The position numbers were made by a program, and so were the translations under genes. The notes below the pieces were generated by a model. That model saw nothing but the letters and a program-made list of their open reading frames with translations, was not told where the DNA came from and did not search any database. A stretch of 64,000 nt of DNA from Candidatus Gastranaerophilales bacterium (GTDB lineage: Bacteria; Cyanobacteriota; Vampirovibrionia; Gastranaerophilales; Gastranaerophilaceae): assembly GCA_944325545.1 (NCBI GenBank), contig CALVAM010000003.1:1-64000 (forward strand). The letters run 5' to 3'. Below are positions 72-55,074 of the stretch, in pieces; the first letter of the stretch is position 1; the number at the start of each line of letters is the position of its first letter.

Positions 72-308
72 CTAATTCCGTAGGACGGTGTGAAGTCCGA
101 ATTCGGCGGCGGTGAGCCGGCGAACTGAGGACGAAACATTTTATCAGTGCCGTTGTGAGTGTAGCGAAAGCGAAACGAACGAAGCAATCTTCGATTGCCC
201 AGGCACTAAATACGGAGAAATAGTTAAGAATTGATGAAAATATCTTATGCAATCTTCAGCGTATAAGCTGGAGCTGAGAATAATCAGTGACAGCGAACAG
301 AAAGTTCG
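72..308 (+). other. 23S-5S internal transcribed spacer
   Basis: About 240 nt between the 23S and 5S genes, with several short inverted repeats. One is a perfect 8-bp hairpin, CAGCGAAC (291-298) with GTTCGCTG (304-311), whose 3' arm overlaps the start of 5S and may serve in rRNA processing. Another is CAATCTTCGATTG near 187-199. No tRNA gene is visible. Two short open frames on the minus strand here are spurious. Confidence 0.6.
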
Positions 309-423
309 CTGGTGACCAATCGTAGGTAAACCACCCGTTCCCATCCCGAACACGGTCGTAAAGACCTACAGAGGTGAAAATACTTGGCGGGCCACCGCCT
401 GGGAAGATAGCACGTTGCCAGCA
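309..423 (+). rRNA. 5S ribosomal RNA
   Basis: A 5S gene of about 115 nt. The terminal helix is visible as GCTGG (309-313) pairing with CCAGC (418-422). The conserved internal segment CATCCCGAACACGG (342-355) corresponds to loop B/helix III of bacterial 5S, and the body ends CTGGGAAGATAGCACG. It is directly followed by an intrinsic terminator. This is the only intact copy; two damaged copies follow. Confidence 0.88.
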
Positions 424-440
424 TCTATTTTAAATAAAAA

Positions 441-478
441 GCGAGAATTATTCAGATGATTAATTTTCGCTTTTTTTT
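441..478 (+). terminator. Intrinsic terminator of the rRNA operon
   Basis: A 10-bp stem, GCGAGAATTA (441-450) with TAATTTTCGC (461-470, one G-U pair), a 10-nt loop and then eight T. It lies 18 nt after the 5S 3' end. Confidence 0.85.
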
Positions 479-497
479 ATTGTAAGAATTCTCGCTT

Positions 498-636
498 GGT
501 AAACCACCCCCTCTCAGCAAACGTGACATTTAGTCACCTTTGCTTCGGCAGAGTCATCCCGAACACGGTCGTAAAGACCTACAGAGGTGAAAATACTTGG
601 CGGGCCACCGCCTGGGAAGATAGCACGTTGCCAGCA
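498..636 (+). pseudogene. 5S rRNA pseudo-copy interrupted by a palindrome
   Basis: GGTAAACCACCC (498-509) matches the functional 5S at 324-335. About 45 nt of unrelated palindromic sequence (510-554) then replaces the four bases GTTC, and from CATCCCGAAC (555) the sequence is again identical to 5S to its 3' end. The first 15 nt of 5S are missing, so the terminal helix cannot form. A second such copy starts at 711 and is degraded after 793. Confidence 0.75.
510..554 (+). repeat. Small palindromic (REP-like) element inside the 5S copy
   Basis: GCAAACGTGAC (517-527) and GTCACCTTTGC (533-543) form a near-perfect hairpin with loop ATTTA. Outer CTCT (511-514) and AGAG (550-553) extend it. The same element recurs 213 bp later at 723-767. 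It sits exactly where four bases of 5S are missing, as expected of a small inserted hairpin element. Confidence 0.6.
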
Positions 637-653
637 TCTATTTTAAATAAAAA

Positions 654-691
654 GCGAGAATTATTCAGATGATTAATTTTCGCTTTTTTTT
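654..691 (+). terminator. Second copy of the rRNA terminator
   Basis: Exact copy, 213 bp downstream, of the hairpin and T-run at 441-478, carried by the tandem duplication. Confidence 0.8.
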
Positions 692-853
692 ATTGTAAGA
701 ATTCTCGCTTGGTAAACCACCCCCTCTCAGCAAACGTGACATTTAGTCACCTTTGCTTCGGCAGAGTCATCCCGAACACGGTCGTAAAGACCTTTAGAGC
801 TGAAAATATTGGGCTGTGGTTTCAACAATATCGTCTTATAGATCTAATAAATA

Positions 854-15596: not shown

Positions 15597-16838
15597 ATGC
15601 AGAAGAAAATTTTAATTATTGGAAATGATATTAATGCAGTTGCTCTTGCAACTTTGTTAGCTAAAAAACATGATGTTTTTATGACTCCTTCTTCTGATTT
15701 CGCAAAAGATTTTTTTAATTGCCTAGATATTAGAGAAGATAATGTTTCCGAAATTTTGGAATTTGTGTTGGAAACCGGTATTGATATGACAATTCCTGTT
15801 TCTGAATTGACTTTAAAAACTGATATTGTCGAGATTTTTAATAGAAATAATCTTAATATTTTTGCTCCTAATTTTGATGCTGCAATTTTAGCCTTAGATA
15901 AAGCTTATGCCAAAAAAGTTTTGTATAAATTAAGGATATCAACTCCTCGTTTTGGTATTTTTGAAAAGCAAAATATGGTTCTTGATTATATTAAAAATTT
16001 AAAAAATCCTTTTGTTATTAAATCGGATGATTCTAATAGTTCTGTTGTTTTTAATTCTTATAAACAGGCTAAAAATTATGTCGATTTTAATTATATAGAT
16101 AAAAATAAAAAGATTATTATTGAAGATTATGTATATGGGATACCATTTTCTTTCTATGTAATTACAGATGGATATAAGGCTTTACCAATCGGCTCTTCTT
16201 TAAATTATAAGCAAAAATTAGAAGGTGACGGTGGCCAATTAACTTCAGGGATGGGGGCGTGTTCTCCTAATTATAAGCTTTCTTTTGAACAAGAAGAGTT
16301 TTTGATGAATAGTGTGATTTATCCTACTCTTGATTTTTTGGAAATTGAAGGAAGTCCTTATTTAGGTATTTTAGGGTTAAATTGTATTATGGAAAATGAT
16401 GGTAATATATCTGTTTTGGGTTATTATCCTTTTGTTCAAAACTTGGATGCTTATCCAATATTAGAGATGATTCAAGATGATTTGTACACTCTTTTTAAAT
16501 CTTGTATTATTGGGGTTTTTAGTGATGAAGTTGATAGTATAAATTTAAAAGATAAATTTTCATCGACTCTAGTTATACATTGTAATAATAAGGAAAATAA
16601 TGAAAATATAATTGATGGAATTGAGTTATTAGAAGATGAAACTTTTTTTGCATATAGTCCTAAAATAAGTAAAAATAAATATTTAGAATTTGAAGCAACA
16701 AATGGAGAAGTTCTTTTTATTTCGACATCAGCTCCTTCTGTTACATCTGCTGTAAAAAAATTGTATAATGAAGTTGAAAATATTAATTTTAAAGGTAAAT
16801 ATATAAGAAAAGATATTTGTAAACTTAATATTTCTTAA
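15597..16838 (+). CDS. Divergent PurD-like ATP-grasp protein
   Basis: 413 aa with the overall order of phosphoribosylamine-glycine ligase: N-terminal KKILIIGNDINAVALA, a central ATP-grasp with FVIKSDD and IIEDYVYGIPFSFYVITDG, and the PurD-type loop EGDGGQLTSGMGACSP. Key PurD features are changed: the glycine-rich ADGLAAGKGV loop reads SDDSNSSVVF, and the metal-binding EFNxRFGDPE segment reads VLGYYPFVQNLD. This makes ordinary GAR synthetase activity doubtful. It stands alone with its own promoter, not beside pur genes. It may be a paralogue with another amide-forming role or a degraded PurD. Confidence 0.75.
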   Translation: MQKKILIIGNDINAVALATLLAKKHDVFMTPSSDFAKDFFNCLDIREDNVSEILEFVLETGIDMTIPVSELTLKTDIVEIFNRNNLNIFAPNFDAAILALDKAYAKKVLYKLRISTPRFGIFEKQNMVLDYIKNLKNPFVIKSDDSNSSVVFNSYKQAKNYVDFNYIDKNKKIIIEDYVYGIPFSFYVITDGYKALPIGSSLNYKQKLEGDGGQLTSGMGACSPNYKLSFEQEEFLMNSVIYPTLDFLEIEGSPYLGILGLNCIMENDGNISVLGYYPFVQNLDAYPILEMIQDDLYTLFKSCIIGVFSDEVDSINLKDKFSSTLVIHCNNKENNENIIDGIELLEDETFFAYSPKISKNKYLEFEATNGEVLFISTSAPSVTSAVKKLYNEVENINFKGKYIRKDICKLNIS

Positions 16839-50994: not shown

Positions 50995-51097
50995 ATAACC
51001 TCCATTAGCACTTTAGATTATCTATTATACAGATTTTTTTAGTATATGCAATAGTGTTTTTGTAAAAATTGTAAATCTTAATAAAAATTTAATAAAT

Positions 51098-51140
51098 GTT
51101 GTATAAACAACTGTGTAATATTTTATTTACGCGGTATAAT
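51098..51140 (+). promoter_or_regulatory. Promoter of pfl with a palindromic regulator site
   Basis: GTTGT-ATAA-ACAAC (51098-51111) is a perfect palindrome centred at 51104.5. TATAAT lies at 51135-51140, so the palindrome centre would be near -42 from a start at about 51146, the class II activator position of the Crp/Fnr family. The sequence is not a good Fnr (TTGAT-N4-ATCAA) or Rex site, so the protein is unknown. Confidence 0.45.
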
Positions 51141-51201
51141 ATTATTAAAATTAGAAGTGTTAAAATTGTCACAATGTATGACGAAAAAAAAGGAGATAAA
51201 A

Positions 51202-53283
51202 ATGTCAGAATTAACATTAGAAAAACAATCTTCTACAACAGATTTCGTTGGCGGAAAATGGCAAAGTGAAATCAATGTAAGAGATTTTATCCAAAGAAAT
51301 TACACACCTTATGATGGTGATTCAAGCTTCTTAGCAGGTCCTACAGAAGCTACTACAAAATTATGGCAAGAATGCTGTGATTTATTCAAAAAAGAACGTG
51401 AAAACGGCGGTGTTGTTGATATGGATACAAAGATTGTATCAACAATTACTTCTCATGGTGCCGGATATATTGATAAAGCTTTAGAAAAGATCGTTGGTCT
51501 ACAAACAGATGCTCCTCTAAAACGTTCATTACAACCTTTTGGTGGTATAAGAATGGCAGAAACTTCTTGTAAATCTTATGGATATGAAGTAGATCCTGAA
51601 GTTACAGAAATTTTCACAAAATACAGAAAAACTCACAACCAAGGTGTATTCGATGTTTATACTCCTGAAATGAGAAAAGCACGTCACGCAGCTATTTTAA
51701 CTGGTCTTCCTGATGCTTATGGTCGTGGACGTATCATTGGTGATTACAGAAGAATTGCTCTTTATGGTATTGACAGATTAATCGAAGATAAAAAAGAACA
51801 ACACGCTTCAGTAGATGGGGATATGACTCCTGATAAGATTCAGTTAAAAGAAGAATTAGCTGAACAAATCAGAGCTTTAGAAGAAATGAAACAATTAGGT
51901 CAAATCTATGGCTATGACATTTCTCAACCGGCTAAAAACGCTAAAGAGGCTGTTCAATGGTTATATTTTGGTTACTTATCAGCAGTAAAAGAACAAAACG
52001 GTGCTGCTATGAGTTTAGGTAGAACATCTACTTTCTTAGATATCTTTATTGAAAGAGATTTAAGAAATGGTGTTATCACTGAAGAAGAAGCTCAAGAATT
52101 AATCGACCATTTCATTATGAAATTAAGATTGGTAAAATTTGCTAGAACTCCTGAATACAATTCATTGTTCTCAGGCGATCCTACTTGGGTAACTGAGTCT
52201 ATCGGTGGTGTTGGCGTTGATGGCCGTCACATGGTTACTAAAAACTCATTCAGATACCTTCACACTTTAGAAAACTTAGGAACTGCTCCTGAACCAAATA
52301 TGACAGTTTTATGGTCAAAGAGATTACCTCACAACTTTAAACAATATGCAGCCCATATTTCTATTACAACTTCATCTATCCAATATGAAAATGATGATAT
52401 GATGAGAGTTACTCACGGTGATGATTATGCAATTGCTTGTTGTGTATCTTCAATGGTTGTTGGTAAAGAAATGCAGTTCTTCGGAGCTCGTGCTAACTTA
52501 GCTAAATGTTTATTATATGCAATCAACGGTGGTGTTGATGAAAGATTAAAAGAACAAATCGGACCTAAATTCAGACCAATTACTTCTGAATATCTTGATT
52601 TTGATGAAGTTATGTCAAGATATGAAGATATGATGGAATGGTTAGCTGGTTTATATGTAAATACATTAAATTGTATTCACTATATGCATGATAAATATTG
52701 CTACGAAAGATCTCAAATGGCTTTACACGATAGAGATGTAAAAAGATATTTTGCAACAGGTATCGCAGGTCTTTCTGTAGTTGCAGATTCTTTATCAGCT
52801 ATTAAATATGCTAAAGTTAAAACTATAAGAGATGAAAATGGTATTGTAGTTGACTACGAAGTAGAAGGCGATTATCCAAAATATGGTAACAACGATGATA
52901 GAGTTGACCAATTCGCTGTAAATATTGTAAGAAAATTCATGAGTATGATTAGAAAACACTATACTTATAGAAATTCTATTCCTACAATGTCTATCTTAAC
53001 AATTACTTCTAACGTAGTATATGGTAAGAAAACAGGTAACACTCCAGATGGAAGAAAAGCTGGTGTACCTCTAGCTCCTGGTGCTAACCCAATGCACGGT
53101 CGTGATTCTCACGGTGCAGTTGCATCTTTGGCATCTGTTGCAAAATTACCGTTCAATGATGCTCAAGACGGTATCTCAAATACATTCTCAATTATCCCTA
53201 ATGCTTTAGGTAAAGACGAAGTGTTTATGGGTGATTTGGATATCCAATTAGATTGCGGATGTTGCGAAGGTACTTGCCAATAG
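51202..53283 (+). CDS. pflB: Pyruvate formate-lyase, catalytic part without glycyl-radical domain
   Basis: 693 aa from the ATG preceded by AAGGAG; upstream in-frame codons lack a ribosome binding site. Converts pyruvate and CoA to acetyl-CoA and formate. The active-site pair Cys413-Cys414 lies in [32 protein letters not shown] and [14 protein letters not shown] are conserved. In ordinary PFL (about 750 aa) [11 protein letters not shown] is followed by ~85 residues with the glycyl radical. Here the chain instead ends in a short new tail with five Cys ([10 protein letters not shown]). The missing part is encoded by the next gene (53393). Strong expression is suggested by codon bias. Confidence 0.95.
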
Positions 53284-53297
53284 GGTAAATAAATTTA

Positions 53298-53369
53298 GTG
53301 AAGAGTGATGAGTGAAGGGTGAAGAGAATTTTTTAAAGAGCTCTTCACACCTCACGCTTCACCCCTCAC
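53298..53369 (+). repeat. Heptamer inverted repeat between the two pfl genes
   Basis: The left arm (53298-53326) is four tandem copies of a GTGARGR-type heptamer ending GTGAAGAG; the right arm (53341-53369) is its imperfect complement (CTCTTCAC... to CCCTCAC). Spacer 14 nt. As RNA it forms a hairpin of about 29 bp in the leader of the small pfl gene. It resembles dispersed tandem heptamer repeats known from cyanobacteria. An in-frame start upstream (53312) would translate through it and is rejected. Confidence 0.75.
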
Positions 53370-53392
53370 AAACAATAGAAAGGAATAATAAA

Positions 53393-53647
53393 ATGACAAC
53401 TCAACAAGAAGAAAATTTAATAAATTTATTAGACGGTTATGTTGAAAAAGGTGGTCACCACTTAAACGTGAACGTATTCAACAGAGAAACTTTACTTGAT
53501 GCACAAGCACATCCTGAAAAATACCCTCAATTAACTGTTAGAGTATCAGGATATGCAGTAAACTTTATTAAATTAACTAAAGAACAACAAGACGATGTTA
53601 TTTCTAGAACATTCCACGCTTCTTTAGGCAACAACTGCGGCTGCTAA
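53393..53647 (+). CDS. Glycyl-radical domain protein of split pyruvate formate-lyase
   Basis: 84 aa. [20 protein letters not shown], then [18 protein letters not shown], then [15 protein letters not shown] is the complete C-terminal domain of PFL. Gly53 in RVSGYAV is the radical site. It is similar to GrcA/YfiD, the spare part that rescues damaged PFL, but here the upstream PflB has no such domain of its own, so this subunit must be essential for activity. It ends in NNCGC, echoing the Cys-rich tail of PflB. GAAAGGA precedes the ATG. Confidence 0.93.
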
Positions 53648-53676
53648 GGGGTAAAGGTAAATAAATATAAAATTTT

Positions 53677-53714
53677 AAATAAGGTGTTATTTTTTGATAG
53701 CACCTTATTTTTTT
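53677..53714. terminator. Bidirectional terminator after the pfl small subunit
   Basis: AAATAAGGTGTTAT (53677-53690) pairs with GATAGCACCTTATTT (53696-53710) with one mismatch, followed by TTTT. It overlaps the 3' end of the minus-strand HTH gene. Confidence 0.75.
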
Positions 53715-53917
53715 ACAAATTTAATCTCATATCCCAAAATCTCAGCTATACAAACCATTTCACTGTATGTGATACTGTTTCTTGAAATTTTATGTGATAA
53801 AGAACTTGGAGAATAGTTTTTTTTAAGCTTTTCAGACATTTCATTAGCAAGTTCTTTTAACATTAAATCTTCTTGTAAAAGAAGTATTTTTATTTGTTTT
53901 TTTACATGATTTATCAT
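53705..53917 (-). CDS. Small helix-turn-helix protein
   Basis: 70 aa from the ATG giving MINHVKKQIKILLLQED; an upstream ATG adds 25 residues of unlikely composition. The rest (LMLKELANEMSEKLKKNYSPSSLSHKISRNSITYSEMVCIAEILGYEI) is a Cro/Xre-like fold with a recognition helix at SPSSLSHKI. Probably a phage-type or lineage-type regulator. Its promoter would face away from pflA, in a 130-nt gap before the 76-aa gene. Confidence 0.68.
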   Translation of the reverse strand: MINHVKKQIKILLLQEDLMLKELANEMSEKLKKNYSPSSLSHKISRNSITYSEMVCIAEILGYEIKFVKK

Positions 53918-54045
53918 ACATATATTATACGTTTTCGTCTTGTAGTTGACAAATATGGCTTTTATTTGTAAAATAATTGATGAATATGGCACGCGTGTGA
54001 AATTTATGGAATTTGTTTTGTAACAAAAATTAATAAAGGTGGATT

Positions 54046-54276
54046 ATGGATAAAAAAGAACAACTGTTTTTTTACAAAAAGTTTGAAAAAATTTGTATTG
54101 AGATTTGGAATGTCAAGTGTTTGGCAAGAATTTTGGAAGAATTGGTGCTGGATAGTGGAAATTTAAGTGATGCAGAGATTTCTACGTTATCTGTTATATT
54201 AACAAGAACTGTTACTGCCTTATCTAAGCAGTCAAATAAATTAGAGGTTGAGCTTGGTAATAAGTTACTTTTGTAA
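54046..54276 (+). CDS. 76-aa helical protein of unknown function
   Basis: MDKKEQLFFYKKFEKICIEI onward, fully helical: AEISTLSVILTRTVTALSKQSNKLEVELGNK. AAAGGTGG precedes the ATG. It ends 46 nt before pflA on the same strand and is probably cotranscribed. No membrane segment or motif; could be a small scaffold or a DNA-binding helper. Confidence 0.6.
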   Translation: MDKKEQLFFYKKFEKICIEIWNVKCLARILEELVLDSGNLSDAEISTLSVILTRTVTALSKQSNKLEVELGNKLLL

Positions 54277-54321
54277 TAAAATTGTGGTAAAGGGATAGAT
54301 AACTAAAAGAGGTAATTTATT

Positions 54322-55074
54322 ATGATAGAACAAGTTTTTGGAAATATACATTCGGTAGAAAGTTGCGGAACAGTTGATGGGCCTGGAATTAGGTTTGTTG
54401 TTTTTACACAAGGTTGTCCTTTAAGATGTCAATATTGTCATAACCCTGATACCTGGGAATTTAAAGATAATCAAAAGATTTCTGCAGATGAAATTTTAAA
54501 ACAATATGAAAGTATAAAAGAATTTTGTGCAGGAGGGATTACTGTAACTGGCGGTGAGCCTTTATGTCAAATGGATTTTGTCACAGATTTGTTTAAAAAA
54601 GCTCAAGAAAGAAATATTCATACGGCTTTAGATACTTCAGGATTATTATTTAATAAAAATGACACCAGTAAAATTGATGAATTATTAAAATATACAAGTT
54701 TAGTATTATTAGATATTAAGCATATTGATGATGAAGAACATAAAAAGCTTACGGGGCATTCTAATAAAAACATTTTAGAGTTTGCTAAATATTTGTCTGA
54801 CACAAATAAACCAATGTGGGTAAGACATGTGGTTGTGCCTGAAATTACTTATAAAGAAGAATATTTAAAACGTTTAGGACAATTTTTGGCTCAGTTACGT
54901 AATATAAAGGCTTTAGATGTTTTACCATATCATGATATGGCAATTCCTAAGTATGAAAATTTGGGGATTAATTATCCGTTAAAAGGAATTCCGCCTCTTT
55001 CTCATGATGAAGCCTTGAAAGCCAGAAATATTATAATTTCAGCAATGAAGGCTGAACGTAGTAAAAATAATTAA
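54322..55074 (+). CDS. pflA: Pyruvate formate-lyase activating enzyme
   Basis: 250 aa radical SAM enzyme that puts the glycyl radical on PFL. The cluster motif CPLRCQYCHNPDTW (CxxxCxxC) is at about 31-44, then GGITVTGGEPLCQ, LDTSGL, VLLDIKHID and WVRHVVVPE. AGAGGTAA before the ATG. Located 0.7 kb downstream of the split pfl genes. Its substrate here must be the separate 84-aa subunit. Confidence 0.95.
   Translation: MIEQVFGNIHSVESCGTVDGPGIRFVVFTQGCPLRCQYCHNPDTWEFKDNQKISADEILKQYESIKEFCAGGITVTGGEPLCQMDFVTDLFKKAQERNIHTALDTSGLLFNKNDTSKIDELLKYTSLVLLDIKHIDDEEHKKLTGHSNKNILEFAKYLSDTNKPMWVRHVVVPEITYKEEYLKRLGQFLAQLRNIKALDVLPYHDMAIPKYENLGINYPLKGIPPLSHDEALKARNIIISAMKAERSKNN

Follow-up and report, generated by a model that had tools for sequence, protein, structure and literature searches.

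A heptamer-built hairpin between pfl and grcA3 is one of a population of post-stop hairpins in a genus of Gastranaerophilales

We found that the hairpin between the pfl and grcA3 genes of a Candidatus Gastranaerophilales bacterium is one member of a population of hairpins, which are built of 7- or 8-nt words, lie behind stop codons and occur in many genomes of the genus. The hairpin was analysed in a stretch of 64,000 nucleotides, called here the window, which belongs to a genome of 1.82 Mb in 37 contigs (G000). With moderate confidence, we explain such hairpins as cassettes similar to REP elements, which would be kept behind the stop codon, exchanged whole by recombination, copied within genomes and active on mRNA.

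The split pfl gene and its hairpin

The locus consists of the following features, all on the plus strand.

51202-53283: large pfl gene, start set at the ATG at 51202 (TIGR01255, 1148.5 bits, best stretch 5-663 of 744)
53284-53392: pfl-grcA3 intercistronic gap, 109 nt; its counterpart is wholly different in some near-identical congeners
53298-53326: 5' arm of the hairpin, four GTGA heptamers (GTGAAGA GTGATGA GTGAAGG GTGAAGA G)
53327-53340: loop of 14 nt, AATTTTTTAAAGAG
53341-53369: complementary 3' arm with TCAC cores (CTCTTCA CACCTCA CGCTTCA CCCCTCA C)
53370-53392: A-rich leader with a likely ribosome-binding site, GAAAGG, ahead of grcA3
53393-53647: grcA3, glycyl-radical subunit of 84 aa (NF038360 rad_fix_GrcA3, 162.6 bits, cut-off 158)
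54322-55074: pflA, PFL-activating enzyme (TIGR02493, 300.1 bits, cut-off 231.75)

The Gly_radical domain of Pfam (106 positions) was covered at positions 2-49 by the large protein and at positions 51-106 by the small one. The gap falls between these two parts, which agrees with the original prediction that the repeat is placed at the split of pfl. In the large PFL the glycyl-radical domain stops short of its C-terminal half, and the small gene is a member of the known GrcA3 family, with a score above the cut-off of NF038360. The best named matches of GrcA3 were mostly MAGs of Candidatus Gastranaerophilales (Melainabacteria). A GrcA3 match was present in 62 of the 65 genomes of the window's genus, and among 31 genomes of other genera (E <= 0.001) it was detected in G056 alone, within an unsplit frame of 764 aa.

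The half missing from the large protein is the one with the RVSGYA motif, which we take to have a role in PFL. Since the large PFL is without this second half, we expect GrcA3 to be an obligatory subunit in this bacterium, unlike the spare part of E. coli. GrcA/YfiD is the spare-part protein of PFL (PMC8683613); both are small glycyl-radical proteins that complete PFL, and the difference is that the large protein described here has no RVSGYA half.

A second, stand-alone grcA3 was found in G000 (C6:37416-37664), and several congeners have such copies as well. Upstream of most copies that were read lies a palindrome like TTGTTGTATAAACAACAGAAATGTTGTTAAACAT, followed by TATAAT; the two look like a putative redox-regulator operator and a promoter, and the palindrome is presumably Rex-like. 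In many of the Clostridia loci L136-L167, a small Cys-rich frame lies between pfl and grcA3 (e.g. L145, L163 and L165), and its motif in the Firmicutes loci is ..GxGHVNI..TDCGxKGACCQPTE..

The inverted repeat of GTGA heptamers between pfl and grcA3 begins 14 nt past the pfl stop codon. Both arms (53298-53326 and 53341-53369, 29 nt each) were reported by Tandem Repeats Finder, and inspection of the sequence gave 6 mismatches between them, every one outside the GTGA core. The RNA fold of 53280-53400 had an energy of -29.7 kcal/mol (z = -3.77), a value equalled by 0 of 200 shuffles. When GTGARGRGTGANGRGTGA was searched in the 64-kb window at 3 mismatches or fewer, all 5 matches lay inside the hairpin (chance expectation 0.41; 0 of 100 shuffles gave 5). 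The heptamer-built inverted repeat that had been predicted is thus real, with its 29-nt arms, 14-nt loop and z of -3.77. Its units had been described as GTGARGR-type, from which the second unit of the 5' arm, GTGATGA, deviates. The end of the leader before grcA3 was near-identical in G043, G003 and G094.

An intrinsic terminator was ruled out, since a T run is absent behind the 3' arm; a terminator scan of 51000-54400, which admits loops of 3-8 nt only, found 0. The covariance models of Rfam, used at gathering score on the whole window, matched the 5S rRNA at 308-423 alone and no intron family, and on the locus L059 they gave two plant miRNA families, both far under their gathering scores. A tandem repeat with a period of 213 bp (2.2 copies, window 308-812) runs from 342; it begins inside the 5S rRNA, so that a piece of the 5S gene recurs.

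The pfl-grcA3 junction was readable in 53 of the 65 genomes of the genus. The 12 left out comprised 3 without a grcA3 match, and others with a stand-alone copy only, a cut contig or no start. In 18 of the 53 junctions the gap at the split was 31 nt or shorter, and none of these held GTGA/TCAC twice. In Ruminococcus loci (e.g. L165), pfl is split without the element and an extra small frame lies between the genes. It had been proposed that the arrival of the element helped to split pfl, and its location exactly at the split point would agree with that. However, because the split occurs without the element in these 18 congeners and in Ruminococcus, the hairpin did not split pfl and the PFL/GrcA3 arrangement is not tied to it; the distribution leaves practically no probability for this proposal.

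A dispersed family of word hairpins

We searched G000 with the window element and obtained 36 further matches at E <= 10, of which 6 were at E <= 1e-3. The check that had been proposed, a search for the heptamer array elsewhere in the genome, thus came out positive, and the family is dispersed. The word GTGARGRGTGARGRGTGA had 121 matches in G000 at 2 mismatches or fewer and the pattern read backward had 35, although such backward controls of word counts are not clean and partly match the same arrays (AGTG recurs in them too). In 17 segments of G000 picked around matches (52,017 bases) there were 35 array clusters, 33 of them outside the called ORFs; 10 of these 33 lay at a segment edge or were without one neighbour.

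Of 58 genomes searched, 38 had four exact GTGA heptamers in tandem and 37 had four GTGA octamers (0 in G000); counts of the heptamer array, overlapping matches included, ranged from 0 to 383 per genome. Some words were rarer, namely GTGATCAAGTGATCAAGTGA (6 of 63 genomes) and GGCACTAAGGCACTA (3 of 63). Within one genome the copies have the GTGA core in common while the remaining positions are free, and several words coexist. The units that we met include GTGANNN/GTGANNNN, GTTTAGAA, GTTAATAA, GGCACTAA and others. At G000:C30:1-1000, four hairpin-like repeats (GTAGGTTGGGT.., CCCCTCCCTCAAGGGGAGGGG, an array of GTGA heptamers and GGTGCAAAAAATTGCACC) recur together in tandem about every 230 bp. In several contigs of the G000 assembly, GTGA arrays lie within a few hundred bases of the contig end.

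For the comparison of gaps, a hairpin was considered strong when its z was below -2 and its energy below -10. In a ribosomal-protein operon we read the infA-rpmJ gap in 49 genomes, rpmJ-rpsM in 49 and rpsM-rpsK in 44; for rpsK-rpsD we used the 28 gaps, out of 42, that fitted the pattern for trimming the leader. Of 27 rpsM matches for which the locus had to be added, 20 were included and 7 left out (G090, G017 and 5 partial matches). Strong hairpins were observed in 27/49 rpmJ-rpsM gaps, 22/44 rpsM-rpsK gaps and 19/28 rpsK-rpsD gaps (5' part), and in 2/49 infA-rpmJ gaps of the same operon.

The post-stop position was measured by the positions of GTGA. In gaps with GTGA arrays the median distance was 6 nt from the stop codon to the first array (four gaps, n = 53) and 46 nt from the end of the last array to the following start codon (three gaps without rpsK-rpsD, n = 49). 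A measure based on the first paired base behind the stop was rejected, as shuffled gaps gave similar 5' values (97/114 within 15 nt vs 112/114).

We assigned the words to classes by custom text patterns, which left 32 of the 53 pfl-grcA3 gaps as none/other. The word classes of gaps within one genome agreed in 33 of 93 pairs, compared with 13.4 ± 3.2 after permutation, and 0 of 5000 permutations, in which kinship was ignored, reached this value. The rpmJ-rpsM and rpsM-rpsK gaps of one genome were 75-79% identical in G019, G016 and G024. Such near-copies in neighbouring gaps suggest, at the level of sequence, copying between gaps.

In many congeners (e.g. G018, G040 and G025) these two gaps, where other genomes have word hairpins, are filled by a distinct element of some 125 nt (ATTTTGCGTAG..GTGAAGCAATAAT); by pattern, it was present in 11/49 rpmJ-rpsM and 10/44 rpsM-rpsK gaps. 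A conserved leader RNA with two helices precedes rpsD (uS4) on the minus strand (G000:C1, approximately 16230-16300; L006, approximately 392-457), and it was matched in 40 of 42 congeneric stretches. In 17 sequences 98.7% of cells were paired, compared with at most 58.9% in slid controls, and 45 cells had two-sided changes, compared with 16.8 after shuffling. Two of five measures (pairs with two-sided change and further pair types) were no better than in shuffles. No match to Rfam was obtained for 5 loci at E <= 0.1, and the leader is a candidate for an uncatalogued ribosomal-protein leader.

A dispersed hairpin family could also be of the REPIN type and mobilised by a REP-associated tyrosine transposase (RAYT), and a Y1 transposase domain was indeed present in 36 of 63 genomes, with two in G000, one of which had an array 187 nt away. 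We regard this as very improbable. A GTGA array lay within 200 nt of just 1 of 20 Y1 loci and within 1 kb of 3 of 20 (a full 1 kb on either side was available for 13 loci), and the genomes G085 (98% complete) and G039 (96%) hold arrays without a Y1 match. Membership in the REPIN/RAYT system was not supported, as arrays seldom flank Y1 genes (1/20 within 200 nt).

Persistence and whole replacement of the hairpins

A strong hairpin was present in the pfl-grcA3 gap of 31 of the 53 genomes. We built a tree from 49 pfl 3' ends; those of G012, G022, G077 and G078 were too short, and all 4 of these genomes have the hairpin. The strong hairpin was found in 22 of the 24 genomes of the window's clade, with G033 and G089 as exceptions, and in 18/18 genomes of its inner clade. 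Since the sister clade had it in only 5 of 25 genomes, PFL and GrcA3 can do without the hairpin.

The words in the gap fell into the heptamer GTGANNN, the octamer GTGANNNN including GTGATCAA, GTTTAGAA, the GTTGAAA-type and plain palindromes, for example TGACTGGTAGG-loop-CCTACCAGTC. Well-supported branches of the tree forced at least 6 changes of label for the heptamer and at least 5 for the octamer. Thus, when the same position was checked in relatives, a hairpin was retained in 22/24 genomes of the clade, but its word was often a different one.

The replacement was seen most clearly between near-identical genomes. In G036 and G019 pfl was 98.8% identical (third positions 96.8%), while the pfl-grcA3 gap was 39.4% identical. 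In this pair the 100-nt blocks leading to the pfl stop codon were 96-100% identical, and the first 100 nt of grcA3 did not differ (100%); beyond grcA3, identity dropped to about 45%, as it did in most other pairs compared. A second pair, G079 and G011, had values of 98.0% for pfl and 43.1% for the gap. In the ribosomal-protein operon, the rpmJ-rpsM and rpsM-rpsK gaps held GTGANTA heptamers in G036 and GTGATCAA octamers in G019. The rpsK-rpsD gap also differed, with a mixed-word octamer array of weak fold (z = -0.9) in G019, and the infA-rpmJ gap (31 nt, no hairpin) was identical.

We compared 11 gaps of at least 35 nt between G036 and G019. Three of them (50-92 nt) were 96-97% identical and 8 were below 75%; the diverged ones comprised 3 word hairpins, and the remaining 5 had indels, repeats of another kind or gene starts open to doubt. 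Because 8 of the 11 gaps were below 75%, intergenic turnover is high in general, beyond the word hairpins. Position-wise comparison was misaligned where the pfl tails differ, and our figures come from close pairs and from 43 pairs with homologous gaps (at least 75% identical). In 29 of these 43 pairs, which are not independent, identity of the gap exceeded that of third codon positions (e.g. 98.2 vs 87.7 in G000/G043). Slow change of the gap between exchanges, through constraint or through recent sharing or exchange, would fit these values.

These observations bear on the possibility that the element is a neutral or selfish small dispersed repeat in operon gaps that tolerate insertion, with hairpin and position as by-products and no role for pfl or grcA3. 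We think this unlikely, although several results agree with it. The copy number varies widely among congeners (0 to 383), the rarer words are restricted to lineages (GGCACTAAGGCACTA 3/63, GTGATCAAGTGATCAAGTGA 6/63 genomes), copies of one element occupy neighbouring gaps (75-79% in G019, G016 and G024), other intergenic DNA likewise turns over, and a sense-strand signal was absent and an arm-matching signal unclear in the pairing comparisons given below. However, one would not expect of filler that 22/24 pfl-grcA3 gaps stay occupied through many changes of word, nor that gaps are more conserved than third positions in 29/43 pairs, and the infA-rpmJ gap of the same operon has strong hairpins in just 2/49 genomes.

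The gaps could also hold a few old alleles each, moved between species by recombination in the flanking genes, with no copying between gaps. The pfl gap of G019 was 85% like that of G079 and unlike that of its sister G036, while the coding sequence of G019 follows G036, as such exchange would predict; likewise, the gaps of G015/G004 (98%), G015/G012 (96%) and G003/G094 (97%) were more similar than most coding blocks. Exchange of this kind as the whole account is, in our opinion, rather unlikely. It leaves aside the agreement of words between gaps of one genome (kinship ignored), and the near-copies in neighbouring gaps, which hint at copying within genomes. Moreover, the rpmJ-rpsM gap of G019 had its best match among the compared gaps (66%) at a different gap, rpsM-rpsK of G083.

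It is also conceivable that hairpin words are actively rewritten throughout a genome, in several gaps together and with positions and architecture kept, as the GTGATCAA words of G019 and the GTGANTA words of G036 might illustrate. We give this only a low probability; if it is true, selection keeps "hairpin here" and not a sequence.

Possible action on the message and known systems

The cassette explanation that we favour starts from what was often observed in several operon gaps of the genus, namely a hairpin of one tandem 7- or 8-nt word a few nt past the stop codon. Its distribution suggests that the hairpin settled between pfl and grcA3 no later than in the ancestor of the window's clade, once PFL and GrcA3 had already been split. 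It would then have been kept and occasionally swapped whole for another word, with the coding flanks nearly unchanged, as in the sister genomes. The most likely route of exchange would be homologous recombination with congeneric DNA through the conserved coding sequences on either side, together with copying of the element between gaps of one genome. In the mRNA, the hairpin could shield the 3' end of the pfl message, slow the ribosome at the stop codon, or both. As a result, a single transcript might yield PFL and GrcA3 at separately set levels. In this explanation every stable hairpin would suffice, and because of that the word could change.

That the hairpin acts on the message is inferred by comparison with those REP elements that lie no more than 15 nt from a stop codon. 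The original suggestion that it tunes the ratio of the two subunits is compatible with the post-stop position and with the persistence through replacements, insofar as sequences can tell. By eye, each word appears to hold a stop triplet, and a period of 7 or 8 might then give stops in all frames.

We compared the pairing of arms with their own partners and with swapped ones. Own arms had only a slight advantage (14 of 20 elements with heptamers, 6 of 8 with octamers). Of the two strands, antisense gave the more stable hairpin in 14 of the 20 and 4 of the 8, respectively. For whole gaps, pfl-grcA3 had no consistent strand (14 vs 17), and rpsK-rpsD was 13 vs 6 for sense. The arm-swap and sense/antisense comparisons gave no signal for selection that refines pairing on the sense strand.

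The closest precedent is the P6b stem of the Nostoc trnL intron. In the lichen-symbiotic strains studied, its heptamers are always of one of two classes, TDNGATT (Class I) or NNTGAGT (Class II), and one class repeatedly supplants the other with a similar structure (PMC4476775). The likeness is a stem of a single heptamer, with the class swapped at the same site, apparently over the whole region at once; in our genomes, too, classes were replaced at the same site with the stem kept. In contrast to the Nostoc stem, the elements described here lie in intercistronic gaps and not in a group I trnL intron, they use several unrelated 7- or 8-nt words and they occupy several gaps per genome. The host is also different, as it belongs to a gut lineage that is not among the photosynthetic cyanobacteria.

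REP/BIME elements, which also occur near stop codons (PMC12306157), are similar as intercistronic hairpins within about 15 nt of the stop codon in many copies per genome. The elements of the genus are likewise palindromic, extragenic and present in many copies, and they lie within about 15 nt of the stop (median 6; 14 in the window). They differ from the REP/BIME elements in that their arms are tandem words and that the word varies between sister genomes.

The resemblance to tandem heptamers of cyanobacteria (STRR) that had been pointed out is an apt comparison. STRR are short tandemly repeated repetitive sequences, whose units were defined from heterocystous cyanobacteria. The genus has the dispersed tandem heptamers in many copies, although their sequences matched none of the STRR units compared; we treat them as STRR-like and claim no membership. 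Elhai reportedly described SDR repeats in 2008, and Liang and Deutscher are said to have dealt with REP elements and stop codons in 2015. Other papers describe the cyanobacterial heptamer repeats GGGANTN and GGGGA(C/T)T (PMC4692102) and arrays of TAACTGA, of which 169 are direct and 1 is inverted, mostly just before start codons (PMC4679880). STRR and these repeats have in common with ours that the heptamer arrays are dispersed and largely intergenic, with fixed and free positions, and TAACTGA is present in ribosomal-protein operons too. Unlike TAACTGA, the arrays of the genus are inverted and lie just behind stop codons.

Short segments are replaced whole between close relatives in horizontal regulatory transfer. 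Replacement of whole segments at short loci, the microdiversity loci of other bacteria, is described in PMC2884548, and the likeness lies in the swapping of short segments among close relatives with intact flanks. In contrast to both, the two alternatives here are hairpins of one plan. We found no account of such repeats in the literature on Melainabacteria/Gastranaerophilales, a weak result as the taxon name was absent from the texts returned. Within the literature searched, what seems new is the combination of an intercistronic and post-stop position with several 7- or 8-nt words in several gaps, varying between sister genomes.

In summary, a structure that keeps its position while its sequence is replaced offers a natural experiment in fermentation and ribosomal-protein operons of near-identical genomes. 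It makes both the role of intercistronic hairpins as structures and the spread of repeat words testable, and it extends the puzzle of the Nostoc heptamer stem to gut relatives of cyanobacteria. Searches for regulatory RNA that depend on alignment can overlook such elements.
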